Shown: in pieces, positions 2,761 to 24,292 of the stretch
How positions within the stretch are numbered: position 1 is the first letter of the stretch
Layout: every line of letters starts with the position of its first letter
Origin: a virus
Length of the DNA stretch: 24,292 bases
Direction: 5' to 3' (one strand)
IMG/VR virus record: IMGVR_UViG_3300028423_000429
Location: 1 to 24,292 of that record
Position numbers and translations under genes: made by a program
The notes under the pieces: generated by a model
What the model was told of the DNA's origin: nothing
The model's input: the letters and a program-made list of their open reading frames with translations, nothing else
The model's database searches: none

Positions 2761-4314
2761 GTGAAAAAAGAATACACAATTATTGTAAAACATAGAACAG
2801 ACCTTAAATCTGTAGAACAAGATCTTGTGGCTGACACAGGCAAAGGCGCAGTTCCTAATAGGTCAGTTGAACTTAAAAACCCTAGATATGGATCTAAAGT
2901 TCAAACGCATTTCATGCTTACCGACGACGAAGCGGAATCACTGCGGCAAGATCCAAGAATTCGAGCTATAGAAATCCCGCCAGAACAAAGGCAGGATATT
3001 CAAATTGGCATAAACGCTTCGCAGACTGGCGATTTCACAAGAGGATTCAACAGTGCTGATGATGTTAATTGGGGTTTGCGTAGAATAATTGAAACTATAA
3101 ATGTTTACGGAGATACTGCATCTGTAGGAGGTGACTACGTATATGCTCTCAATGGTGCAGGAGTAGACATTGTTATTCAAGACAGCGGAATACAGGTAGG
3201 ACATCCTGAATGGGAAGACGCGTCTGGCACAACTAGATTACAGCAGATAGACTGGTATGCAGAAAGCGGAATAGCAGGCACTCAGGATCCGGATCATTAC
3301 AGAGACAGAGACGGGCACGGAACTCACTGCGCAGGAATAGCAGCAGGTAAAACTTATGGATTTGCAAAGGGGGCTAGAATATATTCTCAAAAACTAGAGG
3401 GACTAGAAACATTAGATAATGGATCAGATGGAACTGGTATTCCTCTATCGGATGCTTTTGACACTATAAGGCTGTGGCATAATAACAAAGCAGGCGAAAG
3501 ACCCACTGTTGTTAATATGAGTTGGGGTTTTACTAATTCAAGCACGTTTAATCCTAACAACGGAGTCTATCGAGGTGTTTCTTGGGATTACAATGATGAA
3601 TCTGATACTGAATTATGGGACTTATATGGCATAGTTTCTAAATTTAACGGAAATGCAGACCCAGATTTCAGACGCTTACCCGTACAGGTAGCCTCAGTAG
3701 ATGCTGAAATAGAAGACATGATTCTAGACGGAATTCACATCTGTATTGCTGCAGGCAATGATTTTTATAAGGCAGACACACCTGGCGGCAACGATTATGA
3801 TAATTTTGCTATTTTTGACAGCAATACTATATACTATCATCGTCCTGGTTCGCCATATGCAGCCGGAGCATACTATGTGGGCAATCTTGACACTAATGTA
3901 ATACTAGACGGAACATACAAGGATAAAACAGCTCCTTCTAGTAAAAAAGGCCCGGCCGTAAATATCTGGGCTCCTGGCACAGGTATAATGAGCACTAGTT
4001 CAAATCTAGCAGACGCTAGTTATACCCTATACGATTATCCTGGGGACAGTTCATTTAAAATTATGAATATCAGCGGAACTTCTATGTCTTCGCCTCAAAT
4101 AGCAGGTGTGCTTGCTCTGCATCTAGAAAGTCAGCCTGCGCTTATTCCCAGTGAATTGGCCAACAAAATATTTGCTGATTGCCAGTCGGTTATATATCAA
4201 ACTGCAAACAATGATACCGACTACAGACAAGTAGACACTAGCATTCTCGGATCTCCTAATCGGCATGTCTTTGATAGATACGGCGTGCAACCTTTCCAAA
4301 TTACATCGGGGTGA
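2761..4314 (+). CDS. Subtilisin-like serine protease (peptidase S8) of a phage virion module, 517 aa
   Basis: A complete subtilase fold is visible. Catalytic Asp141 lies in VIQDSGIQ, His186 in DGHGTHCAGIAAG, the oxyanion Asn333 in AAGNDF and the nucleophile Ser441 in SGTSMSSPQIAGV. Residues 1-73, with YTIIVKH at the start and LRQDPRIRAIEIPP at the end, resemble an I9-type inhibitor propeptide, so self-maturation is likely. There is no signal peptide or membrane segment, so it stays in the infected cell or is packed into virions. The start is a GTG at 2761, with AGGG at 2748-2751 as ribosome binding site, 11 nucleotides after the gp15-like stop, suggesting co-expression. Marine T4-like phages are known to carry such proteins, often annotated as structural. 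Whether it trims virion proteins, degrades host surface proteins or acts as a structural part is not shown. Confidence 0.9.
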   Translation: MKKEYTIIVKHRTDLKSVEQDLVADTGKGAVPNRSVELKNPRYGSKVQTHFMLTDDEAESLRQDPRIRAIEIPPEQRQDIQIGINASQTGDFTRGFNSADDVNWGLRRIIETINVYGDTASVGGDYVYALNGAGVDIVIQDSGIQVGHPEWEDASGTTRLQQIDWYAESGIAGTQDPDHYRDRDGHGTHCAGIAAGKTYGFAKGARIYSQKLEGLETLDNGSDGTGIPLSDAFDTIRLWHNNKAGERPTVVNMSWGFTNSSTFNPNNGVYRGVSWDYNDESDTELWDLYGIVSKFNGNADPDFRRLPVQVASVDAEIEDMILDGIHICIAAGNDFYKADTPGGNDYDNFAIFDSNTIYYHRPGSPYAAGAYYVGNLDTNVILDGTYKDKTAPSSKKGPAVNIWAPGTGIMSTSSNLADASYTLYDYPGDSSFKIMNISGTSMSSPQIAGVLALHLESQPALIPSELANKIFADCQSVIYQTANNDTDYRQVDTSILGSPNRHVFDRYGVQPFQITSG

Positions 4315-4398: not shown

Positions 4399-6804
4399 TT
4401 ACAGCGTGCTCAGTCTTTTGACTGTAATCACGCCATTCATGCCTGAGTGAAACTGACATTGGTATTGGTAATTGCCTGAGATAGATTCTTGTATTCTCCA
4501 ATACAGTGTTCCTGAATCAAACCCTTGAGCAGCAGAACCAGTTGACACAGAGCCTGTTGCACTCACATGAACCAAACCTGAACTTATTGCTGCGCCTCCC
4601 GGATCCTGTATTTCAAACGGGTGGCCACCAATTAAATCAAGATCAAACGCAATAGTAGTGCCTGATATTGCATAGATTGTGGGATTATCTCCCGAGTAAT
4701 GTGAATCAAATGTGTAAGCAATTGCACTGTTGTTGTCTACTCTAAGAGTAACAATTGCTGCTTCAAAGATGTCATTAACATCAATACCTGCAGAAGATAC
4801 ATCCGACAGTTCGTTCAAATTTGAAGCACCACCTGCTGATCCTGTGAAACTTACGGTTAGAATATCGCCTGAGATAGAGGTTGATATATCCGTGCCACCT
4901 GCAACAGTTAAAGTGTCTGTGCTTGTATCTGCTGTGGTTGATCCCAAATCTGCTGACACAGTTTGGAATAGATTTTGGCTGGTTCCGCCTGCGCCTGTAA
5001 AATTAATAGTGACAGTGTCACCGGTTACAGACGTTGCAATATCCGAGCCACCTGCAATAGTTAGTGTGTCAGTTGTGGTGTCTGCTGTAGTAGACCCCGA
5101 ATCAGTGCTAACAGTTTGAAAAAGATTTTGATCACTGCCCGATGTGACTGATTGCCAACTCAACTGTCCTGCACCGTCGGTTGTAAGAACTTCGCCGTTC
5201 GCTCCGTCCGTTTGCGGCCAGTTTTGATTGTCTAGTATAATGCTGCCTGTTCCTGCTGTTAAAGAGATATCATCTTCTGCTGTCAAAGCAATCGAAGAAG
5301 CACTGTCCAACGCAAGTGTACCGGTACCCGTTGAAGAAAGCGTTGTGAACGACACTGCGCCTGCAAAATCTACATCAGGCGTAACAGTAATCTGAGAACT
5401 ACCTGTGGTATTAAGTGTAGTACCTATAAATTCAAAATCACCTAATTGTGGCGGTGTATATGTAAATACTCCGGTTGCATTATTGTATATCAAACCAGCA
5501 ACGCCAGGTGTTTCTACTGTAACACTTAAATCTGTGAGAGTCGCAGCACCAATTCCTGCAGCAGTAGGTGGAATAAACTGAAATAATCCTGTTGTGTTAT
5601 CATATGTAATAGCGCCGTTTCCGCTGGGTGTGCCTTCATTGTCTATGTCAATAGCATCTAAAGTAATAACATCCGGAGTGTTTGTGAAATTATTGTAGTT
5701 AAGATAGTATCCACTGTCAAATCCATCAAGTGTGTCTGCATCAAGTCCAGCGCCACCTTCTGCAATATCTGTTCCGGGAGCCCACTTAGCGCCGTCCCAT
5801 TTTAGAACTTCTCCTGGGCTAGGAGGGTTTGATTGAGTATCTACATCAGACAGAAAGTTTATACTAAACGGATTAACATTTATAGTCACTGCATCCGAGT
5901 CTGTAACCACTTCTGTTGATACATTTTCTCCGCCTAATAAGTTTAGTGTTGATACACCGCTAGGATCAAATGAACCGCTGTCTGTATCAATAAGATCGAA
6001 CGAAGAGCCGCTGCCTGTTGCTGCATCTACAAACGAAAATGCACCTGCGCCGTCTGTAGATAAAACCTGGCCGTTTGCACCATCTGTGATTCCAAAATCC
6101 AATATTGAACTGGGAGCATTGTTAAGGTCAACATAGTCATTTGAATAAGCCACTGTGCTTAAAGGATTTATATATCCTGCACTCTCTGCATCGTTGTAAG
6201 TAACATCTGTTAACAGCTTGCGCCACTCGCCTGCGTGTGCATAGTAGAGAGATCCGGTTTCGTGAACGTGCATTGTCATACCATGATAGGTTACAGGAGA
6301 ATAGTTTTCGAGCTCCGATTCAAGCTGCACAGCATTTGCGTATTTGATTATGTTATTGCCAAAATCATAGGTGCCTTCTACCCATTGTAGAGTGTCTTCT
6401 GTGTCTGGTTCGTATGGTATTTGACTGGCATTTTCACCAAGTTCTGCAAGGTTGGCTACTGGTGTCCACTCTCCTGCGTGTGCAAAGTATAGTCTTCCTT
6501 CGGAATGAACGTGAGCAATCATTCCGTGGTAGACAACTGGATCTACTTCTGTTTCAAGGTCATTCAGTGTGTCCCAATGAAAACGAATTCGATTCTTTTT
6601 ACTTAGTAGGTCAAGTTCTGCAGTGCTTTCTATGTTTGCAAAATCCGAAGTTGCAAGTTCCTTTCCTCCTGGATCGTCACCATTGTATACCCTAATACTA
6701 CCAGAATCTTTGTTTGTGTAAATCTGCCCACTGGATCCTGATATTCTATCTAGGAAGCTTGATTGTCTCGGAATAATTCTTATTCTATCAAAAAAGTTGC
6801 TCAT
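4399..6804 (-). CDS. Tail fibre-like protein with His-rich N-terminal duplication and C-terminal cupredoxin-like domain, 801 aa
   Basis: This is a low-complexity, Gly/Ser/Thr/Asp-rich fibre protein. Residues 1-50 hold a docking-type stretch (SGQIYTNKDSGSIRVYNGD). Residues 92-113 and 173-194 are duplicated modules of the form YHGM--HVH--G-LY-AHAGEW. The middle is beta-repeat shaft: paired DGANG(Q/E)VL(S/T)TDGAG units, two GLFQF/GVFTYTP units, and a tandem 51-residue repeat (about 560-661). Residues about 685-796 look like a plastocyanin-type domain with His728 (GGHPF) and Cys783, His786 and Met789 (YQCQFHSGM), the full type-1 copper ligand set. It is convergent with the protease gene. AGGA lies at 6811-6814 before the ATG and a late-promoter-like box at 6823-6830. 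It probably acts at the virion surface in adsorption; metal binding is inferred. Confidence 0.8.
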   Translation of the reverse strand: MSNFFDRIRIIPRQSSFLDRISGSSGQIYTNKDSGSIRVYNGDDPGGKELATSDFANIESTAELDLLSKKNRIRFHWDTLNDLETEVDPVVYHGMIAHVHSEGRLYFAHAGEWTPVANLAELGENASQIPYEPDTEDTLQWVEGTYDFGNNIIKYANAVQLESELENYSPVTYHGMTMHVHETGSLYYAHAGEWRKLLTDVTYNDAESAGYINPLSTVAYSNDYVDLNNAPSSILDFGITDGANGQVLSTDGAGAFSFVDAATGSGSSFDLIDTDSGSFDPSGVSTLNLLGGENVSTEVVTDSDAVTINVNPFSINFLSDVDTQSNPPSPGEVLKWDGAKWAPGTDIAEGGAGLDADTLDGFDSGYYLNYNNFTNTPDVITLDAIDIDNEGTPSGNGAITYDNTTGLFQFIPPTAAGIGAATLTDLSVTVETPGVAGLIYNNATGVFTYTPPQLGDFEFIGTTLNTTGSSQITVTPDVDFAGAVSFTTLSSTGTGTLALDSASSIALTAEDDISLTAGTGSIILDNQNWPQTDGANGEVLTTDGAGQLSWQSVTSGSDQNLFQTVSTDSGSTTADTTTDTLTIAGGSDIATSVTGDTVTINFTGAGGTSQNLFQTVSADLGSTTADTSTDTLTVAGGTDISTSISGDILTVSFTGSAGGASNLNELSDVSSAGIDVNDIFEAAIVTLRVDNNSAIAYTFDSHYSGDNPTIYAISGTTIAFDLDLIGGHPFEIQDPGGAAISSGLVHVSATGSVSTGSAAQGFDSGTLYWRIQESISGNYQYQCQFHSGMNGVITVKRLSTL
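4822..5127 (-). repeat. Tandem 153-bp (51-residue) repeat inside the fibre gene
   Basis: Two adjacent in-frame copies each begin NLFQTVS and continue with GSTTADT-TDTLT-AGG-DI and TS--GD--T--FTG. They occupy roughly residues 560-610 and 611-661. A more distant third copy (DTDSGSFDPSGVSTLNLLGG) lies around residues 273-292. The copies differ at many codons, so the duplication is not recent. They are best read as shaft units of a beta-structured fibre. Confidence 0.75.
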
Positions 6805-6878: not shown

Positions 6879-7310
6879 ATGTCAAACCTTGTATGTGCAG
6901 GTGCTCTTTTCTTCAGTCTTGACACCGAAAGGTTTCTTTTTGTGCATAGAACGCAGGGAAGGAGATCAAATGTATGGGGTATTGTCGGCGGTAATGTCGA
7001 GGGCCGAGAAACGCCATGGGAAGGTTTAAAGAGAGAGATCGAAGAAGAGATAGGTGCAGTTGACATACAAAAAACTATTCCTCTTGAAAAATTTCAATCT
7101 CAAGACGGTCACTTTACATTTCATACCTACCTGTGTATAATAGGAAAAGAATTTCTACCTCAGTTAAATCATGAGCATGATGGATATGCCTGGGTAGAGT
7201 ATGCAAAATGGCCTAAACCTCTGCACTATGGTTTAGGAAATACACTTGCAAAAAAAACTAATCAAACCAAGATTGGAACAGTGTTTAATATAGCCTGGCA
7301 GATTACGTAA
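6879..7310 (+). CDS. Nudix hydrolase, 143 aa
   Basis: Nudix enzymes hydrolyse nucleoside diphosphates linked to another group, using a metal bound by the Nudix helix. The full box GX5EX7REUXEEXGU is present: Gly38, Glu44, Arg52-Glu53, Glu56-Glu57 and Gly59. The N-terminus (CAGALFFSLDTERFLFVHR) is the usual first strand, and the C-terminal half (YLCIIGKEF, LNHEHDGYAWVEY, PLHYGLG) resembles phage MutT-like enzymes. It is a plus-strand gene enclosed by minus-strand fibre genes, divergent from the one at 4399-6804 and convergent with the adhesin at 7323-8303. No strong ribosome binding site precedes the ATG, and a TTGAAT (6841) with TATAAC (6866) is at best a weak promoter. It is probably expressed apart from the late fibre genes. 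The substrate cannot be told from sequence. Confidence 0.9.
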   Translation: MSNLVCAGALFFSLDTERFLFVHRTQGRRSNVWGIVGGNVEGRETPWEGLKREIEEEIGAVDIQKTIPLEKFQSQDGHFTFHTYLCIIGKEFLPQLNHEHDGYAWVEYAKWPKPLHYGLGNTLAKKTNQTKIGTVFNIAWQIT

Positions 7311-7317
7311 ACAATAT

Positions 7318-7336
7318 ATCTTCTATGATAGAAGAT
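7318..7336. terminator. Perfect 8-bp hairpin between convergent genes
   Basis: ATCTTCTA (7318-7325), loop TGA, TAGAAGAT (7329-7336) form a perfect stem. It lies between the Nudix stop (7308-7310) and the end of the opposing adhesin gene, whose TAG stop (7323-7325) is inside the stem. There is no clear T-run on either side, so it may be an mRNA 3'-end stabilising hairpin or a weak two-way terminator and not a classical intrinsic terminator. Confidence 0.5.
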
Positions 7337-8303
7337 CTATTTCTACAAATCCGTCTCCAGAATTTACGCCACTAGAATTGGATTGATTAGTTCCGTTATT
7401 AAACGAACCACCACCAAAACCGCCGCCCCTATCGTTCCCATCGCCGCCAGAATAACCGCCGCCGCCGCCAGCGCCATCAGAACCTTGGCCGCCGCCACCG
7501 CCGAAAGACGATCCGGAGTTACCTTCTCCTCCGTTTACAAAACTAATACCAGGATTTCCGTCGACGGAGCCGCCATTCCCAAAAAAGCCGCCGCCGCCGT
7601 CGCCTCTTTCATTAGAGTTTCCAGAATCAGCCGCACCGCCTTGTCCAGATGATCCTGTGTTGGAATTTGTCTCACTGGTAATACCGTCTTTACCGTCATC
7701 AAATGGGTTGTTTCCTGCGCCGCCGCCGCCGGCGCCTGCTACAATTAAAGGAGTATCTGTAAAGGTTGCTACAAAAGTTCCGCCGCCACCATTTGCGCCT
7801 TCTCCTGTAGTTCTTCCTTCTTGTCCGATTAGAATTTTTATTTTGTCTCCGGCTGTTAGCGTAAAATCACCTCTCATTCTAGCACCTTGACCGGGAGATC
7901 TGTCACCTGCGCCGCCGGCTGCTCCGTATGCTTCTATTCTATAAGTGCCGTCTTGAGGGACTGTCCATAATTGTATACCGTTTGAAGTATCAAAAAATTC
8001 AGTATTATTTTTCCAATTATTAGTTCCTGTGCCTGAGAGGCCGTTTCTTGCCTGAGAAAGACTGGGCCCTGAAGAGCCTGATGATCCACCGGGTGTAAAT
8101 GTTGCTGTAATAAATTCATATAACGAGCTAGCGCCGGATGCAATTGCAATCCATTCTGTTCCATTATAAACTTCTACAATTTCTTCTTCTGTGTTATAAC
8201 GCATCATGCCTAGATTAGCACTGTTAGGTCTTTGAGCATTATTACCTGCTGGAAGTTTAACCGATTGGGTAGTGTTAATTCTTGTGTTTTTTAGGTTTGC
8301 CAT
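7323..8303 (-). CDS. Glycine-rich tail adhesin with conserved docking module, 326 aa
   Basis: Residues 1-55 are a docking module with the motifs LPAGNNAQRPNS, GMMRYNTEEEIVEVYNG and TEWIAIASG, shared with two neighbouring genes. From about residue 112 there is a glycine-rich domain starting LWTVPQDGTYRIEAYGAAGG and holding GDKIKILIGQEG and many GGGGG runs, ending GDGFVEIDLLS. Such domains form polyglycine-type tips in phage adhesins and bind host surface parts; here that role is inferred from resemblance. The start ATG lies two bases after the stop of the 54-residue gene (TAACATG), suggesting translational coupling. It is the last gene of the long minus-strand array and ends in the hairpin at 7318-7336. 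Many glycines use GGC, making the gene locally GC-rich. Confidence 0.8.
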   Translation of the reverse strand: MANLKNTRINTTQSVKLPAGNNAQRPNSANLGMMRYNTEEEIVEVYNGTEWIAIASGASSLYEFITATFTPGGSSGSSGPSLSQARNGLSGTGTNNWKNNTEFFDTSNGIQLWTVPQDGTYRIEAYGAAGGAGDRSPGQGARMRGDFTLTAGDKIKILIGQEGRTTGEGANGGGGTFVATFTDTPLIVAGAGGGGAGNNPFDDGKDGITSETNSNTGSSGQGGAADSGNSNERGDGGGGFFGNGGSVDGNPGISFVNGGEGNSGSSFGGGGGQGSDGAGGGGGYSGGDGNDRGGGFGGGSFNNGTNQSNSSGVNSGDGFVEIDLLS

Positions 8304-8304
8304 G

Positions 8305-8469
8305 TTATAAAGTTACCCATTCTGATCCGTTATACACTTCAAACGCTTCGTCATCTGTGTTGTATCTAAAATCACCTGTTTGAGGACTGCTTGGTCTTTG
8401 ACCAGTTGTTCCGCTTGGAATTTTTAGAAAACCTGTGTCGTTGATTGTGGTATTTTTTAATGTTGCCAT
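8305..8469 (-). CDS. Stand-alone fibre docking module, 54 aa
   Basis: A short open frame starts at the ATG 8467-8469 and stops at TAA 8305-8307. Its sequence (TTINDTGFLKIPSGTTGQRP, GDFRYNTDDEAFEVYNG, SEWVTL at the end) matches the first 50 or so residues of both flanking glycine-rich adhesins, but it stops where they go on into the glycine-rich domain. It starts one base after the TAG of the upstream adhesin and is followed after two bases by the ATG of the next, so it fills an otherwise empty 167-base gap exactly. It may be a remnant of an adhesin that lost its tip, or a real small protein that caps or competes at the docking site. The open frame and the coupling argue for translation. Confidence 0.75.
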   Translation of the reverse strand: MATLKNTTINDTGFLKIPSGTTGQRPSSPQTGDFRYNTDDEAFEVYNGSEWVTL

Positions 8470-8470
8470 T

Positions 8471-9478
8471 CTAGTTATTCTTTATAGTCTCGCTAGATCC
8501 TTGATCAACGTTTGTGCTCGGGAATGATCTGCCTTCACCCCAGAGTATTCTAACAGCTCCGTTGCCGCCGTCGCCGCCTCTGCTCTGTGTGTCATCTTCT
8601 GGCGCGCCGCCGCCGGCACCGTAATTTCCGCCGTCGTTAACAGTACCATTGTTGCCGCCGCTGCCGCCGCCGCCGCCATTGCTGCTGCCGCTTCCGCTAG
8701 ATCCTTGGCCAAATATTCCAACACCGCCGCCGCCATAACCGCGTCTATCCCCGTTTCCGCCGCCTCCTCCGGCGCCACCGGAACCTGAAGAACCTGAACT
8801 CGACGACCCTCCTGTGCCGCCATTACCGGAATAGCCGCCTGCACCGCCGCCGCCCATTGCGCCCGCATTATCTACAGCGTCGCCTCCGTCACCGCCACGT
8901 CCACCGCCGCTTGCGGCTGATCCTAAACTTCCTTGACCGCCGGAACCTGGATTACCTGTGGTTTCGCCTATGCCTCTGCCGCCACCGCGTGCTTCTATTA
9001 AAATAGAGCCGCTTCTTCTAACTTCAGAATCGCCCCCATTCTGTCCATTGCTACCGCTAGTGTTGCCTCCTGACCCTCCGGTACCGACTATAACTGTCAA
9101 AGTTTCCCCTGGAGTTACAGAAACATTGTTACCATAAGTTAAGCCGCCGCCCCCGGCGCCTGAAGATCCATTGCCTGAATTACCAACACCACCACCGCCG
9201 CCGCCACCGGCTCCGACAGCTACTACAAAAATAGAACTCACACCATCGGGAACAGTCCAACTCTGAGTTCCGGTAGACGTAAATACTGCTTCTCCGGGAG
9301 GCGCAGATCCACCTTCTACTGCGATCCACTCTGTACCGTTGTAGAATTCTACCAACTCTTCGTCTGTATTCCAACGCATCATTCCCAGTTCTGGAGAACT
9401 AGGACGTTGTGCAGTAGTGCCTACAGGAAGGCCTATAAATCCTGTATCATTGATAATTGTTCTGTCTAATTCAGCCAT
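8471..9478 (-). CDS. Glycine-rich tail adhesin with conserved docking module, 335 aa
   Basis: Residues 1-54 are the docking module (INDTGFIGLPVGTTAQRPSS, GMMRWNTDEELVEFYNG, TEWIAV). Around residue 65 the glycine-rich domain begins with FTSTGTQSWTVPDGVSSIFV and runs as GGGGG and GSSGSGG blocks to about residue 305. The end GAVRILWGEGRSFPSTNV is a tail I recognise from glycine-rich fibre proteins of marine phages. Its start overlaps the stop of the S74 gene (ATGGCTGA), so the two are probably translationally coupled. It resembles the 326-residue neighbour in plan but differs in its tip, which fits two receptor-binding versions in one phage. Glycine codons are largely GGC and GGT, and the repeated triplets make the gene prone to slippage. 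Confidence 0.8.
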   Translation of the reverse strand: MAELDRTIINDTGFIGLPVGTTAQRPSSPELGMMRWNTDEELVEFYNGTEWIAVEGGSAPPGEAVFTSTGTQSWTVPDGVSSIFVVAVGAGGGGGGGVGNSGNGSSGAGGGGLTYGNNVSVTPGETLTVIVGTGGSGGNTSGSNGQNGGDSEVRRSGSILIEARGGGRGIGETTGNPGSGGQGSLGSAASGGGRGGDGGDAVDNAGAMGGGGAGGYSGNGGTGGSSSSGSSGSGGAGGGGGNGDRRGYGGGGVGIFGQGSSGSGSSNGGGGGSGGNNGTVNDGGNYGAGGGAPEDDTQSRGGDGGNGAVRILWGEGRSFPSTNVDQGSSETIKNN

Positions 9479-10292
9479 TTTTTACCTGAGATAAACTCTT
9501 TATTGCATCTATCAGATAAGCAGTTAACCGTGAGTAAGAAACTGTTTTGAATTCACCGTCTGTGTCAACCAGTTCAGGAATTACTCGTTCTACTTCTTCT
9601 GCTATCAAACCCACTTCTCGCTTACCATTAGATTTTCTTGTGAATTCCACAGGATTTAAACGAGAAATTTTGTCTATAGAATCTGTTAACGGATCAATAT
9701 CTGTTTTTAGAACCAAACTTGAAGTTTCTGTTATTGAACCTGCTTGCACTGTGCCTGAAAAAGTACCGTTGGTTGCACTTGAGATTGATCCAGAACTAAT
9801 AGAAAGACTTCCGTCTGAAAACACATCAGCACTTAGTGTGCCACTGTTTGGTACAAAACTCAGTTTACTGGAAGCAGTATCTACTGAGGATATAGAGCCA
9901 CTGTTAGAAGTGCTTATCAAAGGATAATAGGTAGCAGTATCAGCAGATTGATTTGAAACTTCTATTGTTAAATCTGTAAACGATAAATTACCCGATCCGT
10001 CTACAGTTAACACATCGCCAGCTGTTCCTATGTCTGTAGGCAGTGTAAGAGTATAGTCTGACGACAGTTCTGGACTTTGAATCGACACGCTGTTGTCTTC
10101 TGAGTTGTCATTAAACACCAAAGAAGACGTCCCCTGTATACGCAGATTAGAGTTTACAACAGTTTCGCCGGTGCCGTTGGGTGCAAACTCTATATTTTCA
10201 TCGGCAGGCAGAGTTCCAAAAATATTTCCGCTACTGAAATAATTTCCCAGTATCGATCTACCTGTTACACCTGTTGATATTCTTCTTGGCAT
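9471..10292 (-). CDS. Fibre-type protein with C-terminal S74 intramolecular chaperone domain, 273 aa
   Basis: S74 domains help trimeric fibres fold and then cut themselves off. Residues 191-273 match: TSSLVLKTDIDPL, RLNPVEFTRK, REVGLIAEEVERVIPELV and a closing helix RLTAYLIDAIKSL. In characterised endosialidases a Ser and a Lys five residues later form the catalytic dyad; here Ser191 and Lys196 have that spacing, and the cut would fall just before Ser191. The N-terminal part holds IEFAPNGTGETVVNSNLRI and LTVDGSGNLSFTD, beta-rich fibre-type sequence. The gene overlaps the next adhesin by eight bases. AAGGATA lies shortly before the ATG. With only 190 residues before the cut, the released product would be a small fibre part; the domain could also act on a partner protein, which is speculation. 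Confidence 0.85.
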   Translation of the reverse strand: MPRRISTGVTGRSILGNYFSSGNIFGTLPADENIEFAPNGTGETVVNSNLRIQGTSSLVFNDNSEDNSVSIQSPELSSDYTLTLPTDIGTAGDVLTVDGSGNLSFTDLTIEVSNQSADTATYYPLISTSNSGSISSVDTASSKLSFVPNSGTLSADVFSDGSLSISSGSISSATNGTFSGTVQAGSITETSSLVLKTDIDPLTDSIDKISRLNPVEFTRKSNGKREVGLIAEEVERVIPELVDTDGEFKTVSYSRLTAYLIDAIKSLSQVKNG

Positions 10293-10304: not shown

Positions 10305-10625
10305 TTAGCTTGTTGGGGTTTCTATTCCGTATACTACAACGTTGACGTCTGTGGAATTTGAATAAACAACTATTCTTTTGTCTGCATCTAGCACAATGCC
10401 TGAACGCTCTAGCACACCGTTTCCTAGTAATTCTGCATCGTACTCTATCCATTCATCGTTTGTGGGCGAATCTGCTAGAGCAACTGCTACTCTTACTGTT
10501 CTTGACTGTGAGTTTCTATTTGTAACATTTACAGTTACTACTGAAAATGTGTTTGTGGGAACTGTATACACTGCTGTATTAGTAGTTGCAGATAGATCCG
10601 CTGTTCCTAGTATGCCTGAAGCCAT
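10305..10625 (-). CDS. Small conserved virion protein, 106 aa
   Basis: The sequence has the motifs ASGILGTADLSATTNTAVYT, FSVVTVNVTNRN, RVAVAL and GVLERSGIVLDADKRIVVYS. This is a small all-beta protein type that I recognise as common beside large fibre genes in T4-like marine phages, where it is annotated as hypothetical or structural. It resembles the 109-residue protein at 23620-23949 in size and fold pattern, which suggests distant paralogy. CGGAGATAAG precedes the ATG. A GATAAATA box lies 87 bases upstream at 10712-10719, inside the end of the giant gene, and could drive it. Function is unknown; a decoration or tail-attachment role is plausible. Confidence 0.65.
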   Translation of the reverse strand: MASGILGTADLSATTNTAVYTVPTNTFSVVTVNVTNRNSQSRTVRVAVALADSPTNDEWIEYDAELLGNGVLERSGIVLDADKRIVVYSNSTDVNVVVYGIETPTS

Positions 10626-10640
10626 TATTCTTATCTCCGT

Positions 10641-13600
10641 TTATCTTAAAAAGTATTGAAAGGCTAGCGGTACACCTAATACCGTTCCTCTGAATCTTAT
10701 ATTACCAAATATATTTATCGGTTCTCCATCTACACTGGAAATTTGGTTACCACCAATAAAGATGTTGCCTGCAGTAACGCTATTTACATTAAGTGACGCG
10801 CCGCCGCCACCTATCTGCGATTCAATATAGGCTTTTACTGCTCTCTGAGTAGGAACAATATTGTCAGAATCTGCAGTAAAGAAAGGATCTGTTGAGAATT
10901 CATTTATTGCTGCAGAGTTGCCTCCTAGAGACACCTCGCCCAGTGTAAGTTCCTGTAGACCTGCAAGGTTAAATGCATCTGCAGAAATTGTAGCAACACC
11001 AGTACTCTGTTCTACGGAGAACAGATCACCTACTCTGAAGTTACCATCTTGGTCGGTAGAAGTAAAGAATACCCTACCTCCGTTTTCGCTGCGTGTTTCA
11101 TTAGCTTGGTCAGGGACATTTACAGGCTCTCCAAAGAACCGACTAGGGTAATTTGTTTCTGAAAAACTACCTGTACCGATATCTAGGAAATCATGGCCTG
11201 TCAGCCTTACCTGAGAATATCTTATTCTAAGAGTAATTTCTTCTTCGTCTTGTGGCGCTTCTGTAATAGTTAATCCGGGTGATATTTGCAGGAATGCTGT
11301 ATAAGAACCGTCATTATCTCCCACAAAACTGACTGTTGTAACCAATTTGAAATACCTGCCTGGTAGACTGTCAAATTCAACATTGGATCCGTCTACAGGC
11401 TGATCTGATATCCATTTTACTGCTATCTGATCAACTGCCTGGCGGAAGTCTGCTTCGCCGTTTGAATTTTCAGCATTTATATCAGCACTTGCTTCGGAAT
11501 AGTTGCTGCCTCTGCTAAGAAAGGTTGGGTTCGCAAGAGAACCCTTGCCAATTCTTGGCAACAGAATAACATCTTCTGTGTTACCTGGATCTGTTACAGT
11601 CACAGTGGGCTCGGTGCTGTAGTTTGATCCTGGCTCTTTCAGTCTTACTTCAAATATCTGTTCATTTGAAACACTTGCTCTACCTCTAGCCTTTGCACCA
11701 AGGTTAGCAACTGCGAGTGTGCTATCCGACGCAACAGAGCTGGCAACAAATGTAGTTGTTCTGTTGGGATTGCCGTGAGCAATTGCAGAGAACCCTGTAG
11801 TTACATTAGTGTCAACTGATTGTGCTGTCCATTCTAGGCCATACTCAGAATGATATACTACGGAATTTTCTGTCGCACTTGTAATTGCAAAAACACCCTG
11901 TCCATAAGCAATCTGTGCAGGTTGATCTATTGAAGTAAGTCCTGTGTCTGTCCAGGTTATGCCGTCTAGACTGTAGAGAACACTTCCTTCTGAACTTACA
12001 AGTATGAATCTTCCGTTACCCCATTTGATGTCAGTCCATGTACCTGAAGTTTCTACGTCTGTTGTAGTATCCCAGTTAACCCCGTCTGTGGAATATGCAA
12101 TCTGCGCTTCTCCTGACCGCGCGGCAACAAATAGGCCTTTTCCGTATGTGAGACAGGAAAAACCAATAGCCGGTAATGCATCTGTTGTAGTGATCCAGGA
12201 GTCAGCGCTGTTCTGACTGTACACAACGTCTCGACTGTTATCACTGATAGCTACAAATCTATTGTCGTCAACAGCTATGTTTCCAAAAGCAATCTTTTTA
12301 TCGCCCGATGTAGGTAATCCAGATGTAGAACTCTGCCATACTGCTGCATCTGCAGAATAGTTTACAGTACCGTCTTCTGCAATTGCTGCAACTACAGCCG
12401 ATTTATATAGTGATGATCCATCATCTAGCAGTCCTGTTGCAAGGTCTCTCCAAGGACTAGTGGTAGCCATTGTTTCTGTAGTCCAGGTAAGTCCGTCGAC
12501 GCTGGTATGCGCAATTGCGCTCGAGTCTTGGTCAACACCTACGAATAGACCTTTTTCGCCATATCCGTCAAAATCAAAGTCAAGCACAGTCCCTGAATTA
12601 TCTAGAGCAATAAGTGTCACTGTTATGTCATTTGTTGGAGTAGCACCACCTAGGAGAGTACCGTCGATAGTAACAGTTTCCAATCTCTCGTATCCTGATC
12701 CTGGGGTGTTGAGAGCAACATAGTATTTTGATCCTACTCTTACTACATCGAAAGACACATTTGAACCAGAACCTCCTGTAGCTGATACGTCGGTGTATTC
12801 TTCTGATGTTTCAAAATATTCGATCGCAGATAGAGCAACTGCCGAGTCTAAAGCACCCGTTGTTAGGGAATTACTAGGAGCAGAGAATTCTATTCTAGGT
12901 TCAATCTGATACACAGATGTAGAATTTGGTTCGACTATAGGTATACCCGGAACAACATGCTCCCACCCTGCAGTGCCGTCTTCTTTAACAACTGTTGCTT
13001 CTTTTGAACCTGCATTATAGGTGTCAATGAAAGCATACTGTCCTTCGCCTGATCCGCCTACGATATAAATAGCCATTCCGGGATATGCGGCACTAAGGCT
13101 TCCGTCTGTGGCCGCAAGGAAGATGCCGGTCAAACTGCCTTCCTGCGCAGTATTGCTTTGTACCGTGTATCCTTCGCCACCTGGAGGCACACCTTCTGTT
13201 GCCCCTATTCTCGCCTGGAATACTGCGTCGTCCCTGAATTCGTCTGCTTTTGTTTCGGCTCCTATTCCTGCACCAAATACTTCGATTTCTGCTTCGGTAT
13301 AATTGTTACCAGCATGATCAAATTCTACGGCTAGTATCTGATCGCCATCAACTGTAACATTTGAAACAGTAGCGTTGAACTGTGTTCTATTGTCTACCAC
13401 TGCTCTTACAGGAGTTTCTTCTGGGTCTACGCCTTCTGCTACTGAACCAAACGTGCCATATGAATTATTGCCGTTTGTTGCTCTGATTCTTCCGCCACTT
13501 TCTGCAAGATAACCTACATGAGCATAGTATGAGAATACAGATACTAATTCTGCTCTGCCATTGTTAGTGATCCATGCTCCAATGCCGTCGGAGATAAGCT

Positions 13601-16600
13601 GAGTAAAGTCATTTGACACAATCGAATCGTTGCCCGCAGCGTGTAATTCTCCGTCAATCTTTTGACCTATAGCAGCTTCACCAAATGTAGAAACATTTTG
13701 AACGTAGGGAGATCTTGCTGTGATATGAACTCTCTCATCTTCTGGGCCCCAACCCGGGTCGAGACTGCAATATGCGCCTGCAGTAGGTCTGCGTGTGCCA
13801 AATTCGTTCTCGGGAGTAAGATCTCCGCGCAGCCCTGCTACTGATTGCAATCTTATTCCGGTTGCATTTCTAAGATAGTACATGTCCTCTTCCTGAGAAC
13901 CTATCACAGAATTTACGTAGTATCTTGCTGCTAGTCTATGTCTATAGCTTGCTGATCTGTAGATAGTAAAATCAGCAACAGAGCCTATTCCTGTGTAAGA
14001 TCTTTCCCACACTGAAGGATAAACCAAATCCCATTTGATTGAATCTATGTATTCTCTCACATCTCTAGCACAGAGAGTTTCGTTGTAATCATATGTGGAT
14101 TTAACAGTAAATGAGCCGTTCCACTCTTGTGTGAGATCGACTTCTTGAATTTCTCCTTCAGATACCTCTCCAATCTTGAATTCTGTTGCACTTGTAATCT
14201 CGTAGACAAAATATTCTGTTTGAGACGACAACCCGGCGTCTGTTAGATCAGTTGAATCGTCTTCAAATTCGATCGGTTGATTTCTAAATAACCAGCTAGT
14301 ATCTGATATTGTTAGAGTGTTTGCGGTTGTATTAATATTCGTAACAGTATCTTGAAAATAATCGTTTACATAGGCAAGAACTTCTTGTGCTATAAATTCT
14401 TTGTTAAGTTCTAGTTGTAAAACTGCATTATAGACTTCTTGGTCTTCGACCTGGTTGTTATTTCCTTCTGCAAATCCCGTGAAGATAGCATCATCCTGTT
14501 GTTGGAATGTTTCGTTTACGGTTTTTCCAAATTCTTGTTCTTGTACAGTAGTACCGCTCGGAATGTAGTCTGCTATAATCAGTCTTCTTACAAATTCAAA
14601 AACCGCAATTCTTGCCTGCTTTTCTTCTTGGTTAAGTGTACCTGCAATTGATTTTACATAGAAATTTGTTTGTATAATTGCAGCAACATTTGCAGAAACT
14701 GCATGGTCGTAAGCAAGTGCTTCTACAATATCTACAATTGCAGTTTCATATTCTGTCTGATTGTAAACCAAATCCGAAAAGTTTGCGTTGATAAAACTAA
14801 TTGCCTGAGATTGAATTGTTGAAATATTAGAATCCAGCGTAGAAACCACTGTTTCTTCATATGTTCCAGCATCAACTGTAGGATAGACTATTGCAACAGT
14901 GCCCTCACCATTTTCTAAAATATCAGTGATATTTGTAAATAAGGCATTTATTCTATTAGCAACTGCTGCTGTTCCGCTAGGTCCGTTTGTAATTTGTTCA
15001 ACGGCAATCTGAAGCGCAACAACTTCAGTTCCTGTGGCAATATCTCTACAAAGATTGTTTAAGAAATCATATACATCTATAGGTAATTGTTCTTCTGCTG
15101 GATCAATAACCAAAGTTGCAATATTTTCATCGTAATAGGAGTTTCCTATTCTCACACTTTGCCAATTGCCTTCGTATGTTAAATCGTATGATACAGCATC
15201 TATTACAGCAGAAACATCATTTTTGACTTTGGTTTTAGAATAGTGTTTCACGCTCGGGCTGTTTTCATTTATAAATTCTATAGTCTCTGCCTTTAGAAAT
15301 TCTAGATTCAATCTTAGAAGGTCTCTTCCATATCCAAATTCAGGAGCATCCATAGAGTAAGGAGTTTGGAATTTGGCAGATATTAGATCACCAATGTTAT
15401 AGTCTATATTTTTCCTAATACTTCTTGCTAGTTTTTCAGTCTGTTCGCCTACCTGGACGGTTTCAGCAAACGGCCATTCTTGACTCTGAGACTGTGTATT
15501 AGCTGGACTTGCAGTAACAGTAGCTCCTGTGACTACGTCGCCTATGATTTGTTCTACTCTGTCTAGTCCTTCAAAAGAATATCTAAAATCTACTCTTGGA
15601 GTAAGAGTGCTATTTACAGTATTTCTTGCTTCGATTCTTGTAGATCTTAGTTCGTCGCCTAGCACACAGCATTTTGCAGGAACTATTATAGGACAGACTT
15701 CTCTATAAGTGCCAGTAGACACTCTAATAAGAGTATGCAGTTCTTCTCTTGCTGGAATGCCGGATTCCGATCCTGACAGGATTGCAGTGTTAATTACAGA
15801 TACATAATTTTCTATGTCCGAATAAACGGTTTCTTCTGCGTCTAAAGAAATATCCTTGTATTGGTTTACAATTCTAGTCGAATTGTCGCCTCTCAGTTCT
15901 TGATAGTTTTCAACAGGATCTGTCTGTTCTAATACATTTTCCATTAGAGAACTAGCATAATTGATTATAGCTACTGTTTCGTTTTCTTTCCCTTCAATAT
16001 ACGCAGCTTGTAGGTAATCCAGTGCAATTTCTCTAGTCTTTATGTTTCCGCCATGTGAAATGTCATATTCAACAGCATCAACAATAAATCCTATATCTCT
16101 TTCATATTTTGCAGAGTCATATGTAAAATTTGCTGTGAAAGGAGAATTTGCTTCTTGAATTTGATATTCTGTCCATTCTCCTGTTTCTCTTTGAATGAAC
16201 TGCCTGTTTCTCTCTAGCAGTTTTCTTGCGTTTGGATTTTTTGTGCCACGCTCTATCTGTTCACAAGCGTAGCGCACTGAGCGCCATGGTCGATCGAGAG
16301 ATTTACCATAGATAGGTGCAGGTTCATTTGTTCCGTATTCTGTTACATAATAAACATCTTCTATACTTCCGATAAATTCCCACTCAGGAATTCCTTCGGG
16401 AGAAACTGTTAGTATTTGACCATTTTCGCCTATTGGCAGTCTCTGCGGTGCTGTACCTGCAAAATATACCAAATCGCCTGTGGTAGTAAGCACGCTCTGT
16501 TCTGTGCCTATCGCAAGCACACTCCAGAATTCGGAAGAATCTTCTACATCAGGAGAGTTAACACCATCGTCTGCTATATGATAAGAATTCGCAACAAACG

Positions 16601-17657
16601 AGCTGTCTATAAATCTTACAACATCTCCTGCAAAGTATTCAGCGCCGTCGAGCCATTCACCTCTCCACTCGAATCCTGAATTTAGTCTCTGCCAGAATTC
16701 TTCATTTGGTGGTTGCTGATTTGCGTGATCCTTAACGGCTCTGTAAGTAAATCCGCCTAGACGAACGACTTCTCCGACTCTGTATTCTACGTTAGAAGAA
16801 TCTTCATTCCAGTCGCCTAGAAATCTCAGTCCTTCTGAAAAAAGCTGCCATTGTCCGTTGTCGCCTGTAGGGAAGTCTGAAACATTATCGGATACTGCAA
16901 TATATTGATTGCCACCGTATTTTACGATATCGCCTGACTGATATTTTCTAGTAGCATCCCACTCGTCTTCAAACTCGAATCCTTCTACAAACGCTTCCCA
17001 GAAATCAGAATCCGTTTCAAATTCTGCACTGGAAGTATGATAGGCTAGACAAATCCAAAGCTTTGCTCCTCTTTGAACCACGTCGTTTTTCTTGTATCTA
17101 AAGCCCGAAGTCCAGTCAGACAGGTATTCGAATCCTTCGTTGAACACCTGCCAATTTGACACATCTTCTTCTAAACCAAGTTCAGTAGTCCCTGCTGATA
17201 TGTGATCTTGTACACATACATAGCTGATACCACCATATTTTACAAAATCATTTATCTTATAATTGAAAGAAGTTTCCCAGTTGCCTTTCCAGTCTAGTCC
17301 TTCTGCAAATATTTGCCATTTTTCTATATCAGCCTCTAGGCCCTGAGTAGAATCTTCAGCGGAAATATGATCTTCCGTTGAGATATAAAGTCTAGCACCA
17401 TAGCGAACTATGTTGTCTACAAGATATCTCTCGCCTGGCTGCCATTCTCCTTTCCAGCTTTGGCCGTCTGCCACAAGGTTCCATTTTGAAGGTACTGCGT
17501 TTAGATCATCAAAAAATTCTGTAGAACTATTATGACCTATAACACATATAAAGGACTTGCCGTTGAACGATACCACATCGTCCTTGTAATATTCATTACC
17601 AGAACTCCATTCTCCTTTCCAGACAAATCTTATTCTTCCTAATTTAAATTCAGCCAT
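10641..17657 (-). CDS. Giant modular tail/fibre structural protein, 2338 aa
   Basis: This is the longest gene in the window. Order of parts: seven CBM5/12-like repeats (1 to about 385); a stretch with PIGENGQILTVSPEGIPEWE; a block from about 434 (YVTEYGTNEPAPIYGKSLDR); a helical region (about 510-1250) with repeats of the type DIGFIVDAVEYDISHGGN; a core shared with the 1830-residue protein (YLRNATGIR, SLDPGWGPEDER, VSNDFTQLISDGIGAW, IRATNGNNSYGTFG); a propeller-like region (about 1700-1940) with YSTDGVNW and YSLDGITW; and a C-terminal domain with HDFLDIGTGSF, TDQDGNFRVGDLFSVEQSTG and DSDNIVPTQRAVKAY. Similar giants occur in marine T4-like phages as virion structural proteins. CTCC at 17665-17668 (GGAG on the coding strand) is the ribosome binding site, with a late-type box upstream. 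No lesion is visible over 7 kb. Confidence 0.8.
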   Translation of the reverse strand: MAEFKLGRIRFVWKGEWSSGNEYYKDDVVSFNGKSFICVIGHNSSTEFFDDLNAVPSKWNLVADGQSWKGEWQPGERYLVDNIVRYGARLYISTEDHISAEDSTQGLEADIEKWQIFAEGLDWKGNWETSFNYKINDFVKYGGISYVCVQDHISAGTTELGLEEDVSNWQVFNEGFEYLSDWTSGFRYKKNDVVQRGAKLWICLAYHTSSAEFETDSDFWEAFVEGFEFEDEWDATRKYQSGDIVKYGGNQYIAVSDNVSDFPTGDNGQWQLFSEGLRFLGDWNEDSSNVEYRVGEVVRLGGFTYRAVKDHANQQPPNEEFWQRLNSGFEWRGEWLDGAEYFAGDVVRFIDSSFVANSYHIADDGVNSPDVEDSSEFWSVLAIGTEQSVLTTTGDLVYFAGTAPQRLPIGENGQILTVSPEGIPEWEFIGSIEDVYYVTEYGTNEPAPIYGKSLDRPWRSVRYACEQIERGTKNPNARKLLERNRQFIQRETGEWTEYQIQEANSPFTANFTYDSAKYERDIGFIVDAVEYDISHGGNIKTREIALDYLQAAYIEGKENETVAIINYASSLMENVLEQTDPVENYQELRGDNSTRIVNQYKDISLDAEETVYSDIENYVSVINTAILSGSESGIPAREELHTLIRVSTGTYREVCPIIVPAKCCVLGDELRSTRIEARNTVNSTLTPRVDFRYSFEGLDRVEQIIGDVVTGATVTASPANTQSQSQEWPFAETVQVGEQTEKLARSIRKNIDYNIGDLISAKFQTPYSMDAPEFGYGRDLLRLNLEFLKAETIEFINENSPSVKHYSKTKVKNDVSAVIDAVSYDLTYEGNWQSVRIGNSYYDENIATLVIDPAEEQLPIDVYDFLNNLCRDIATGTEVVALQIAVEQITNGPSGTAAVANRINALFTNITDILENGEGTVAIVYPTVDAGTYEETVVSTLDSNISTIQSQAISFINANFSDLVYNQTEYETAIVDIVEALAYDHAVSANVAAIIQTNFYVKSIAGTLNQEEKQARIAVFEFVRRLIIADYIPSGTTVQEQEFGKTVNETFQQQDDAIFTGFAEGNNNQVEDQEVYNAVLQLELNKEFIAQEVLAYVNDYFQDTVTNINTTANTLTISDTSWLFRNQPIEFEDDSTDLTDAGLSSQTEYFVYEITSATEFKIGEVSEGEIQEVDLTQEWNGSFTVKSTYDYNETLCARDVREYIDSIKWDLVYPSVWERSYTGIGSVADFTIYRSASYRHRLAARYYVNSVIGSQEEDMYYLRNATGIRLQSVAGLRGDLTPENEFGTRRPTAGAYCSLDPGWGPEDERVHITARSPYVQNVSTFGEAAIGQKIDGELHAAGNDSIVSNDFTQLISDGIGAWITNNGRAELVSVFSYYAHVGYLAESGGRIRATNGNNSYGTFGSVAEGVDPEETPVRAVVDNRTQFNATVSNVTVDGDQILAVEFDHAGNNYTEAEIEVFGAGIGAETKADEFRDDAVFQARIGATEGVPPGGEGYTVQSNTAQEGSLTGIFLAATDGSLSAAYPGMAIYIVGGSGEGQYAFIDTYNAGSKEATVVKEDGTAGWEHVVPGIPIVEPNSTSVYQIEPRIEFSAPSNSLTTGALDSAVALSAIEYFETSEEYTDVSATGGSGSNVSFDVVRVGSKYYVALNTPGSGYERLETVTIDGTLLGGATPTNDITVTLIALDNSGTVLDFDFDGYGEKGLFVGVDQDSSAIAHTSVDGLTWTTETMATTSPWRDLATGLLDDGSSLYKSAVVAAIAEDGTVNYSADAAVWQSSTSGLPTSGDKKIAFGNIAVDDNRFVAISDNSRDVVYSQNSADSWITTTDALPAIGFSCLTYGKGLFVAARSGEAQIAYSTDGVNWDTTTDVETSGTWTDIKWGNGRFILVSSEGSVLYSLDGITWTDTGLTSIDQPAQIAYGQGVFAITSATENSVVYHSEYGLEWTAQSVDTNVTTGFSAIAHGNPNRTTTFVASSVASDSTLAVANLGAKARGRASVSNEQIFEVRLKEPGSNYSTEPTVTVTDPGNTEDVILLPRIGKGSLANPTFLSRGSNYSEASADINAENSNGEADFRQAVDQIAVKWISDQPVDGSNVEFDSLPGRYFKLVTTVSFVGDNDGSYTAFLQISPGLTITEAPQDEEEITLRIRYSQVRLTGHDFLDIGTGSFSETNYPSRFFGEPVNVPDQANETRSENGGRVFFTSTDQDGNFRVGDLFSVEQSTGVATISADAFNLAGLQELTLGEVSLGGNSAAINEFSTDPFFTADSDNIVPTQRAVKAYIESQIGGGGASLNVNSVTAGNIFIGGNQISSVDGEPINIFGNIRFRGTVLGVPLAFQYFLR
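16500..17657 (-). repeat. Seven CBM5/12-like repeats in the 2338-residue giant
   Basis: Seven units of about 50-55 residues follow the pattern W-G-W----Y---D-V---G--Y-----H. Examples are WKGEWSSGNEYYKDDVVSFN, WKGEWQPGERYLVDNIVRYG and WRGEWLDGAEYFAGDVVRF. The spacing of Trp, Tyr, GD-V, G and Tyr resembles chitin-binding modules of families 5 and 12. Binding to a glycan is inferred from this pattern only. Confidence 0.7.
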
Positions 17658-17687: not shown

Positions 17688-20600
17688 CTATTGCATACTA
17701 TCGTCAAAAGTTCTCAGTAACAGTGACTGTGTTATCATTGTTCCGGAAACATGTGTAGGAGTTCCGGTTCTTGGATCACTGCCTTGCAATGACGCTTGTC
17801 TAGGAACGTCTATGAAAGGTTCTGCAATTACATCTAGTGTATTAGCAGGCCCTCCTAACCGTAGTCTTCCTGATATAAGAGTATTTGTTTCGAGGTTTTC
17901 GCCGCCGACCGAAAGACGTTGTGCAAGGAAACTTGCCACAGCTCTTTGAGTCGGAACAATATTGTCTGAATCCTGTGTGAAATTTGGATCCGTGGAAAAT
18001 TCTCTAACGACAGTTCCGGAACCACCTAGCCTAATTCCTCCTAATGACAGTTCGTCCAGTCCTTGCAGATCAAAAAATTCAGCGGATATAGTTATAACAC
18101 CAGTTGCCTGATTAACAGCAAAAAGGTCGCCGCCTCTGAAGTTGCCGTCTTGGTCTGTAGAAACATAAAACACTCTGCCGCCGTCAAATTCTCTAACTTC
18201 GTTGTCGGGGGATGCTGTAAAAAAGTTGCCGCTCCCGTATATTTGAGGATAGTTGGTGTTGTCAAAATTCCCTGTGCCTATGTCAAGGAAGTCATGATTT
18301 GTTAATCTTGCCTTGCTGATATTTTCAATAATAGTAACAGTGTCTCCGTTGTTTATATCATTTTCTAATGTAAGAGCAGGAGTCACCTGTATTTCTACGA
18401 GATTAGTTCCTTGATTGGTTCCGTCGTCACCTAGGTTCGTTACTATTGCTGCAGAATACTCTTTAAGCTGTGTAGGATTCTCATCGTCAAATACACCATC
18501 AATTAATATCTGAGCTCCTACGTCTGGAATTTTCGTCACGTTATTAATTGTTAGTATGTTATCTGCAGGAATTACATCAGCAAAACCGTCGCCGCTTATA
18601 ACAACATCTGCTTGAGAACTTACATATCCTGCACCTCTGTTAATAAAATCAGGCTGAGCAAGAACTCCTGAGTTGATTCTTGCTTGAATGGCTGCATCTA
18701 CTGATGCAACATTGTCAAATAACACGATCTCAGGCGGTGCTGCAGAATCATACCCGGATCCTGGGTCCCAGATTTTCATAAAACTTATCTGACCTTGTCT
18801 TACAAACGGTCTCATTATAGCAGGTTTCCCTGTGCGTACAATACCAACGCCACTCGATCTTATGCTATCTGCAAACAGGAACCACTCTGGTCTAGAATTA
18901 AAACTAGCAAATCCAAAAGTAGTCCAGGGTTTCGATTCATCTAGTACAGTCTGTTGCCAGTTTAGACAGTTATAGGAAGTATATACAGCTCCTGTAGTGT
19001 CTATCACAAAAAATATGCCTTGATTGTATTTTATTGTTATAAAAGTTCCCGGTTCTTCTCCGGCATCTGCAGGCGGAGTTCCTGTAAGCCAATCAATTCC
19101 GTTGAAACTGTAAAAGCATAATCCGTCTGATGTAATTGTAACAAATTTGTTATCACCGTAGGTAAGGGCAACAAAATCATATTGATTTTCATCATCAATC
19201 TGTGGCAGCACTGTGTCATTTCTTGTCCATGATATACCGTCTTCTGATGTTGCAGTTGCTCTATCTGACGTAGACAGTGCTAGGAATTGTCCTTTGCCGT
19301 ATGCAAGATATTGATATGCAGAAATTGTAGAATCTGCTGTAGAATCGCTGTCTGTATCTTCTGGGATCTCTGCTAGTTGCCATGTTTCGCCGTTGCTGCT
19401 ATAGGCAACAGTATTAGAGTTATTAGAAATTAACACAAATACATCATTTCCGTATACACCGTCTACCCAATTTTGAGTTTCTGGCAAGGCACGTTCTGAC
19501 CATGTTTCGCCGTCAAGACTGAATGCAATTCTGTCTTCTAGAGAAGCAACAGCAACAAATCTATTATTGCCGCTTATAATTCTCGGAAAGTCTGCAACAA
19601 ACGGAAGTGTAACCTCTGTGTAATTTCGTCCGTCGTCTGTGAATAATGCAAAGTTTGGATTTGCGACATTTACTAATCGTCCGGCTCTTCCTGTGCCTTC
19701 TGTTTCTATAGAAATAACACTGTTTGTGCTGTCCTCAGACACTTCCGTTATTCTAACAATAAGGTCGTTTTCGGGACTAGAACCGTCAAATTCTGTACCT
19801 GCAATTACAAAAGAATCTCCTACAACATATCCTGCTCCCCCGTCGACAATGCTAGCAGAATAATCTAGACCAGCTTTTACAATGTCTAGTACAGCAGATT
19901 GATCTGCAACTTCAGAGTCACCTTGGCTGCCAGTTGGTATTTGGACGGCTGCAAAGGTCTGTGTGATTTCACCGTAAACTGAGTCGATGTAGGTTCTATC
20001 AACAGGCAAATCTTCATATTGTTGTTCGAAAGGCGGTGCTTCTATGTCTACACGAGGCTCGATTCTATATTGGTTATTGGTGTCGAGCAGTTCAAGTGCA
20101 GGCGTGCCTCCTACAACATGATCCCATCCAGGCTCTCCGTCAGATTCTCTAACCACAGTTGCATCTTTGGTGGTAGGATTGTAGGTATCTATTATTGCAT
20201 ACTGTCCGGCTGCAGGTCCAGCAATAATAATCACTCTCTGACCGGTATAGTTTGTGTCTATTTGATTGCTGTCGTTAGTAGACAAAGTTATCTCTGTTGC
20301 GCCGTTGGAGTTAAATTGACAAAAACCTTGTTGTTGTGTATAACCCGAACCTCCCACAGTAGCGCTATCGCCGAAACCTGTTATCTTGCCGCTGAATATT
20401 GCACTATCTCTAAAATCTCTAAATTCAACCGATGCAAATTCGCCGGCGCCTATTATGTTAGCATCTGCTGTTGTGTATTCTTCTCCGCAGTTTCTGTATT
20501 CAAAAACAAGGATTTCACTTATCGACCCTCCTGCGATAGCATCCTGTACCTGCGCTTGATTGTTGCGATTAAATACAGATACCTCTTGTGGAGTTTCGTT

Positions 20601-23952: not shown

Positions 23953-24292
23953 TTATCCAATTGCTATTATATTTTCGAACGCTATAGTTTCTGCGTCTGT
24001 TCTTGATAGACCTGCTTCCTGGCCTGCTACTGAAATCCAATTTAATCCGTCCCAGATTTCAACACGATTGTCATCTGTGTTTAATCGCATAAGGCCTGGT
24101 TCGGAGAAAGCAACCGGAGGACGTTCGTCACTTTGTCCTATTGGAATTACTAATCCGCTAGTGCCGTCAAATTTGACATAACCGTTATCTGTGTTATCAA
24201 AAACTGTGACTGCATTACTTTCTATATTTTGTATTACATTTGTATTTATTGCAAGATTATCAAACACAATACTGCCAGTACCGTTTGAATTA
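23953..24292 (-). CDS. C-terminal part of a fibre-type structural protein, cut by the window edge
   Basis: About 112 residues are visible. A GTG at 24265-24267 could be read as a start, but the frame stays open to the edge, reading NSNGTGSI before it, and this NGTGSIVFDNLAI pattern belongs to fibre proteins (compare APNGTGETVV in the S74 gene). The true start therefore lies beyond the window. The visible part holds YVKFDGTSGLVIPIG, ERPPVAFSEPGLMRLNTDDN, RVEIWDGLNWISV and a closing helix TDAETIAFENIIAIG. The central portion is a distant copy of the docking module seen in the glycine-rich adhesins, here at a C-terminus. TAA is at 23953-23955 and the next gene starts three bases after it. Confidence 0.65.
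   Translation of the reverse strand, partial: NSNGTGSIVFDNLAINTNVIQNIESNAVTVFDNTDNGYVKFDGTSGLVIPIGQSDERPPVAFSEPGLMRLNTDDNRVEIWDGLNWISVAGQEAGLSRTDAETIAFENIIAIG

Follow-up and report, generated by a model that had tools for sequence, protein, structure and literature searches.

A tip-less dock gene lodged between two phage adhesins is selectively maintained and may encode a blank subunit of a multi-adhesin complex

What is a gene for when it encodes the mount of an adhesin and nothing beyond it? The question arises from a 24,292-nt stretch of viral DNA (IMG/VR record IMGVR_UViG_3300028423_000429, positions 1 to 24,292; hereafter the window), in which three neighboring genes share one N-terminal module of ~54 residues, the dock. 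In two of them the dock leads into a glycine-rich tip, different in each, and in the third nothing follows it, as a preliminary description had recognized. The genes of this array and its surroundings are as follows.

4399-6804, minus strand: 801-aa fiber or baseplate-wedge connector-like protein (phrog_677), the next gene past the array
6879-7310, plus strand: NUDIX hydrolase, conserved downstream border of the cassette array
7323-8303, minus strand: slot 3 adhesin, 326 aa, dock plus a glycine-rich tip resembling PF12810 (E 8e-5)
8142-8303, minus strand: dock domain of slot 3, residues 1-54, placed by its match to the 54-aa protein
8305-8469, minus strand: slot 2, tip-less dock protein, 54 aa, from the open reading frame list and its matches to the neighbors
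8471-9478, minus strand: slot 1 adhesin, 335 aa, dock plus Gly_rich_2 tip (PF21722, E 5e-16)
9317-9478, minus strand: dock domain of slot 1, residues 1-54, placed by its match to the 54-aa protein
9471-10292, minus strand: 273-aa fiber protein ending in a Peptidase_S74 intramolecular chaperone, upstream of slot 1
10305-10625, minus strand: conserved protein of 106 aa, encoded ahead of the S74 gene in every relative compared
23953-24267, minus strand: gene of 104 aa as called, close to the end of the contig, with a divergent fourth copy of the dock

In the order of minus-strand transcription, the 106-aa gene is followed by the S74 fiber gene and slots 1, 2, and 3, the dock genes of the window thereby forming an array that adjoins fiber genes. 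The S74 gene overlaps slot 1 by 8 nt, and the tight packing ascribed earlier to the tip-less gene was borne out, since a single nucleotide separates the slot 1 stop from the slot 2 start (TAG-A-ATG) and the slot 2 stop from the slot 3 start (TAA-C-ATG). The slot 1 tip scored 59.8 bits against PF21722, above the curated cut-off of 24.3; that of slot 3 differs from it and approaches the ALK/LTK glycine-rich domain PF12810, just under the cut-off. The interval first assigned to the array (8136-9478) takes in slot 3 only as its dock part, and the fourth dock copy was absent from that list. Its matching part (24031-24168, minus strand) is weaker, at 36% identity, and ~30 residues follow the dock in this gene, which may be the end of a longer fiber gene.

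A protein of 453 aa encoded at 1388-2749 matches the T4 gp15 tail sheath stabilizer, and one of 2338 aa has its nearest counterparts, at no more than about 40% identity, in fiber proteins from Pelagibacter phage Mosig and from T4-like cyanophages; on these two grounds we regard the window as a fragment of a T4-like marine myovirus. No near DNA match to it was found among phage records. Directly after the gp15-like gene lies a subtilase gene (Peptidase_S8, E 7e-26; 2761-4314, plus strand), and the 2338-aa protein and its equally giant neighbor of 1830 aa (10641-17657 and 17688-23180, minus strand) have related starts and carry several CBM_5_12 carbohydrate-binding modules each.

The 54-aa protein aligned with the starts of its neighbors at 60% (E 2e-20) and 55% (E 9e-18) identity, far beyond chance; the three slots are homologous docks. 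The motif initially quoted for all of them (INDTGF--LP-GTTAQRPSS and onwards) holds for slots 1 and 2 but not for slot 3, which reads INTTQSVKLPAGNNAQRPNS. An HMM and an alignment of 80 docks placed the core pattern GTTAQRPxSPxxGxxRxNTxxxxxExYxGxxW at the N-terminus of the 54-aa protein, which ends two residues past the end of the dock profile with no tip, unlike most dock-bearing cassette proteins; this missing tip is what sets off the tip-less class among such proteins of T4-like marine phages. In database comparisons, the 54-aa protein reached 17.7 bits (E 0.003) against Pfam PF24059 (DUF7360), below the curated cut-off of 27.6 bits, and PHROG 20787 (67 aa, 'virion structural protein') matched the dock core. 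A text search for the dock motif gave no paper.

Comparison of the same locus in four relatives revealed a short dock gene in three of them, and corresponding docks that bear a tip in some phages and none in others. L083/L005 has the layout of the window (341, 54, and 332 aa); in L084 (56, 54, and 383 aa) the slot 1 dock is likewise tip-less, and L086 encodes proteins of 55, 476, and 321 aa. Slot 2 is therefore tip-less in the window and in the two nearest relatives of this layout. The remaining phage, L085, carries a glycine-rich protein without any dock, so a tip-less subunit is not universally needed. The S74 fiber gene is the upstream neighbor in L083, L084, and L086 as well, with a 323-aa variant in L085, and the opposite-strand NUDIX gene (61-64% identical to that of the window) borders the variable cassettes in all five phages. 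In L084, the tip-less slot 2 gene ends in a TAG in frame with the slot 3 start 6 nt downstream (1471-1480), where readthrough would yield a protein with two docks and a single tip. A general mechanism joining the short gene to its downstream neighbor by frameshift or readthrough was rejected, because the relative frame of the next start varies among relatives (+1 in the window, L005, and L086; +2 in L011, L012, L019, L020, and L025; in frame in L084 and L006).

One reading of a dock without a tip is a decayed adhesin cassette that has lost its tip and is being eliminated. The slot 2 genes of the window and L005 differ at 31 nucleotides, 19 of them at third positions, and only eight residues are changed. 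When 31 changes were placed at random, none of 20,000 trials yielded so few residue changes and 12,679 carried a stop codon. The corresponding dN of 0.085 and dS of 1.21, the latter near saturation, give a dN/dS of about 0.07. Dock identity between the two phages is higher at slot 2 (85%) than at slots 1 (72%) and 3 (66%), and both stop and spacing of the 54-aa gene are kept in L005, its nearest relative. The gene is under purifying selection and conserved in relatives, and so passed the refutation test envisaged at the outset.

A further line of evidence concerns how docks end. Among 141 distinct related N-terminal docks, the tail past the dock measured 2-9 residues in 11, 19 and 38 residues in two, and at least 153 in the rest; these loci were partly fetched with the tip-less 54-aa query and are biased to docks, so that 11 of 141 shows two classes and not a frequency. 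On the dock tree, built on 54 columns and with many forks unresolved, the tip label needs six changes versus 10.7 in shuffles, and the tip-less docks of L011, L012, L019, L020, and L025 form one clade (support 95/92). Tip-less docks are a discrete, heritable class.

In Kyanoviridae, a slot that we term A sits behind the fiber gene T4-GC346 and the conserved T4-GC347. Across 17 annotated genomes, slot A is tip-less in eight (S-SM1, S-IOM18, QB2, P-RSM1, metaG-MbCM1, Syn33, S-RIM12, and ACG-2014a) and tipped in nine (P-RSM4, S-SSM5, S-RIM2, S-H25, S-8S29, P-SSM3, S-CAM8, S-RIM14, and Syn19); both states occur even within Tefnutvirus, where S-IOM18 lacks a tip and S-H25 and S-8S29 have one. To count it in metagenomes, 80 contigs were fetched with the neighboring gene T4-GC347, a search blind to tip state. 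Forty of the 66 distinct arrangements of slots A and B so obtained have a tip-less slot A gene (76-92 aa), the others encoding 290-478 aa, bar one cut by a contig end. Slot B lacks a tip (82-85 aa) in S-SM1 as well as in L349, L365, L369, L355, L336, and L325. Many cyanophage contigs (L326, L332, L375, L384, and others) carry small cysteine-rich proteins of 59-63 aa or proteins of ~210 aa inserted after slot A. The slot A tree (36 tip-less versus 26 tipped rows) needs eight tip-state changes versus 20 in shuffles, by a quick method that leaves some long branches, at least two of the changes being forced by starred branches. Related phages thus retain the dock of an orthologous slot and switch its tip state time and again. 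Median dN/dS, confined to close pairs because distant ones inflate unfiltered pairwise values, was 0.29 for tip-less slot A, 0.20 for tipped docks, and 0.13 for tip-less slot B. Slot docks are under constraint, the tip-less ones at slot A no more so than the tipped; since the former do not fall below the latter, our claim is one of selection and not of extra-strong selection. In RefSeq, the S-SM1 genes SSM1_041-043 are named structural or fiber, and SSM1_044-049, tipped and tip-less alike, are hypothetical; virion proteomics of this phage has been published (PMC3037559). We found no text describing the tip-less class of Kyanoviridae cassette proteins.

These repeated changes of state imply that tips are lost at times, which is what a decayed cassette would need. 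Purifying selection, to which the window/L005 substitution pattern attests against decay, the near absence of intermediate truncations between the two tail-length classes, the 1-nt junctions devoid of any remnant, and the clustering of tip-less docks in clades that recur all speak against it, and we hold decay, one of the options raised in the preliminary description, to be extremely improbable. The short gene looks like a working 'blank' rather than a broken gene, given that selection maintains it and that tip-less mounts like it turn up again in related phages from the ocean and from fresh water.

Docks and tips have different histories. In L005, slot 3 keeps a slot 3 dock and bears a tip of the slot 1 type, and across loci we found 30 gene pairs with docks at least 70% identical but unrelated tips, along with 128 pairs in which the tips are related and dock identity does not exceed 55%. 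Exchange of docks and exchange of tips are independent of each other, and tips move between docks, which supports the notion of a common dock with exchangeable tips. L005 slots 1 and 3 are identical over their final 90 nt (7901-7990 and 9076-9165), the rest being about 60% identical, and this block appears to stem from a recent local gene conversion or exchange joining the 3' ends of the tip genes. Such traffic invites the idea that the short dock is kept as a stretch of DNA for homologous uptake of new tips, all the more so as the 30 incongruent pairs with similar docks and unrelated tips signal that junctions near docks recombine over time. Within the genome of the window, however, the landing place proposed at first sight found no backing: the longest exact matches between the short gene and a neighboring dock span 7-11 nt, the only recent exchange seen, that of L005, lies at 3' ends, and it is the protein and not the DNA that is conserved, as the third-position share of the slot 2 differences illustrates. 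We deem this explanation very unlikely.

AlphaFold, supplied with 80 aligned docks, predicted for the 54-aa protein a compact domain of three strands (mean pLDDT 90). The best fold matches in the PDB were CBA120 TSP3 (TMq 0.71), CBA120 TSP4-N (0.60), and BPP-1 Mtd (0.50), all with E above 0.01 and none in this search passing E 0.001; the 54-residue trimerization domains of collagens XV/XVIII appeared further down (E about 1). Among predicted viral structures, fold matches include S-SM1 proteins only 76 and 82 aa long. Sequence comparison aligned the dock core with the C-terminal ends of Gp49 (9d83, E 0.001) and CBA120 TSP3 (E 0.0095). Compared with the XD2/XD3 assembly domain, a β-jellyroll of ~60 residues found in T4 gp10 and CBA120 TSP4, Foldseek returned TMq 0.57-0.60 with probabilities up to 0.99 and E 0.09 or worse. 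In CBA120, XD2 and XD3 of TSP4-N bind other tailspike trimers, XD domains mediating tailspike assembly (PMC8825819). Because 7rfv, which ends at residue 250 without XD3, is among the fold matches, XD2 may be the counterpart of the dock in TSP4-N.

How a mount without a tip could serve is suggested by the dock N-terminus. Over residues 1-17, docks of the same slot in different phages are 71% identical versus 47% across slots, the corresponding values for the core being 64 and 55% (nine docks only). The slot-specific N-terminus would address each dock to its own place, and the core would trimerize into a mount for each adhesin, in a multi-adhesin complex that might sit at the end of the S74 fiber or at the baseplate. 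A tip-less dock would then fill its place as spacer, branch point, or cap, leaving the complex whole without a receptor-binding tip there. We give an even chance to the proposal that the product of the 54-aa gene is an assembly domain complete in itself and able to fold on its own, maintained as a putative structural subunit, a blank, that fills one slot of such a complex.

Tip-less docks could alternatively enter the same sites, or mixed trimers, as tipped ones and so set the number of tip-bearing sites. Such competition would draw on the core common to the slots of one genome (55-60% identical) and on adjacent genes with near-overlapping stops and starts, as in translational coupling; slot-specific N-termini nevertheless suit an assigned slot better than rivalry for one site, as does a tip-less state fixed at one slot in many phages, which makes this reading unlikely. 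The frequent position of the tip-less gene directly before a tipped dock gene, with stop and start overlapping or nearly so, would equally fit an assembly factor that aids neighboring adhesins in trimerizing or reaching the fiber and is missing from the finished virion, and small chaperones are usual beside tail fibers (Pam3 gp25, PMC9608196). Yet the tip-less protein is a homolog of the very dock that serves as structural part, and its Pfam matches and 25 best PHROG matches include no Tfa-type chaperone family, leaving this function rather improbable. A blank structural subunit is the likeliest assignment, ahead of the competitor, with decay and landing site disfavored.

More broadly, and tentatively, T4-like marine phages might build multi-adhesin heads from addressed slots and keep blank docks among their regular components; through tip gain or loss, both how many tips there are and of which kind could then change on a permanent scaffold with assembly intact. 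For host recognition, abundant ocean phages depend on variable gene islands crowded with 'hypothetical' proteins. If tip-less docks were obligatory blanks, a widespread class of small unannotated genes would be explained; these islands could be read by a rule, that of addressed slots with a tip present or absent, and tip gain and loss would become countable evolutionary events.

Known systems offer partial parallels. In the CBA120 tailspike complex (the XD domains of TSP4-N) and in T4 gp10, small trimeric β domains assemble several receptor-binding proteins, and the AlphaFold model of the 54-aa protein is similar to TSP4-N; XD domains, however, are parts of long proteins, whereas the dock of the 54-aa protein stands alone. 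The dock-like part ends the protein in CBA120 TSP3 and Gp49 but begins it in dock arrays. Adhesins of the Pam3 gp24 and S16 gp38 type resemble the tipped slots in being modular fiber proteins with an N-terminal mount and a glycine-rich receptor-binding end, although Pam3 gp24 is mounted by α helices and the account of it consulted describes no tip-less partner. The Kyanoviridae cassette genes after T4-GC346/347 (T4-GC 998, 1427, and 349), recorded as hypothetical proteins, are built as in the window, with a dock that either leads into a variable tip or stands without one, and their tip-less members of 76-89 aa (S-SM1, Syn33, P-RSM1, and others) likewise lie beside fiber genes; they differ in a slot-specific leader of ~35 residues before the dock core, which in the genes of the window measures only ~17.
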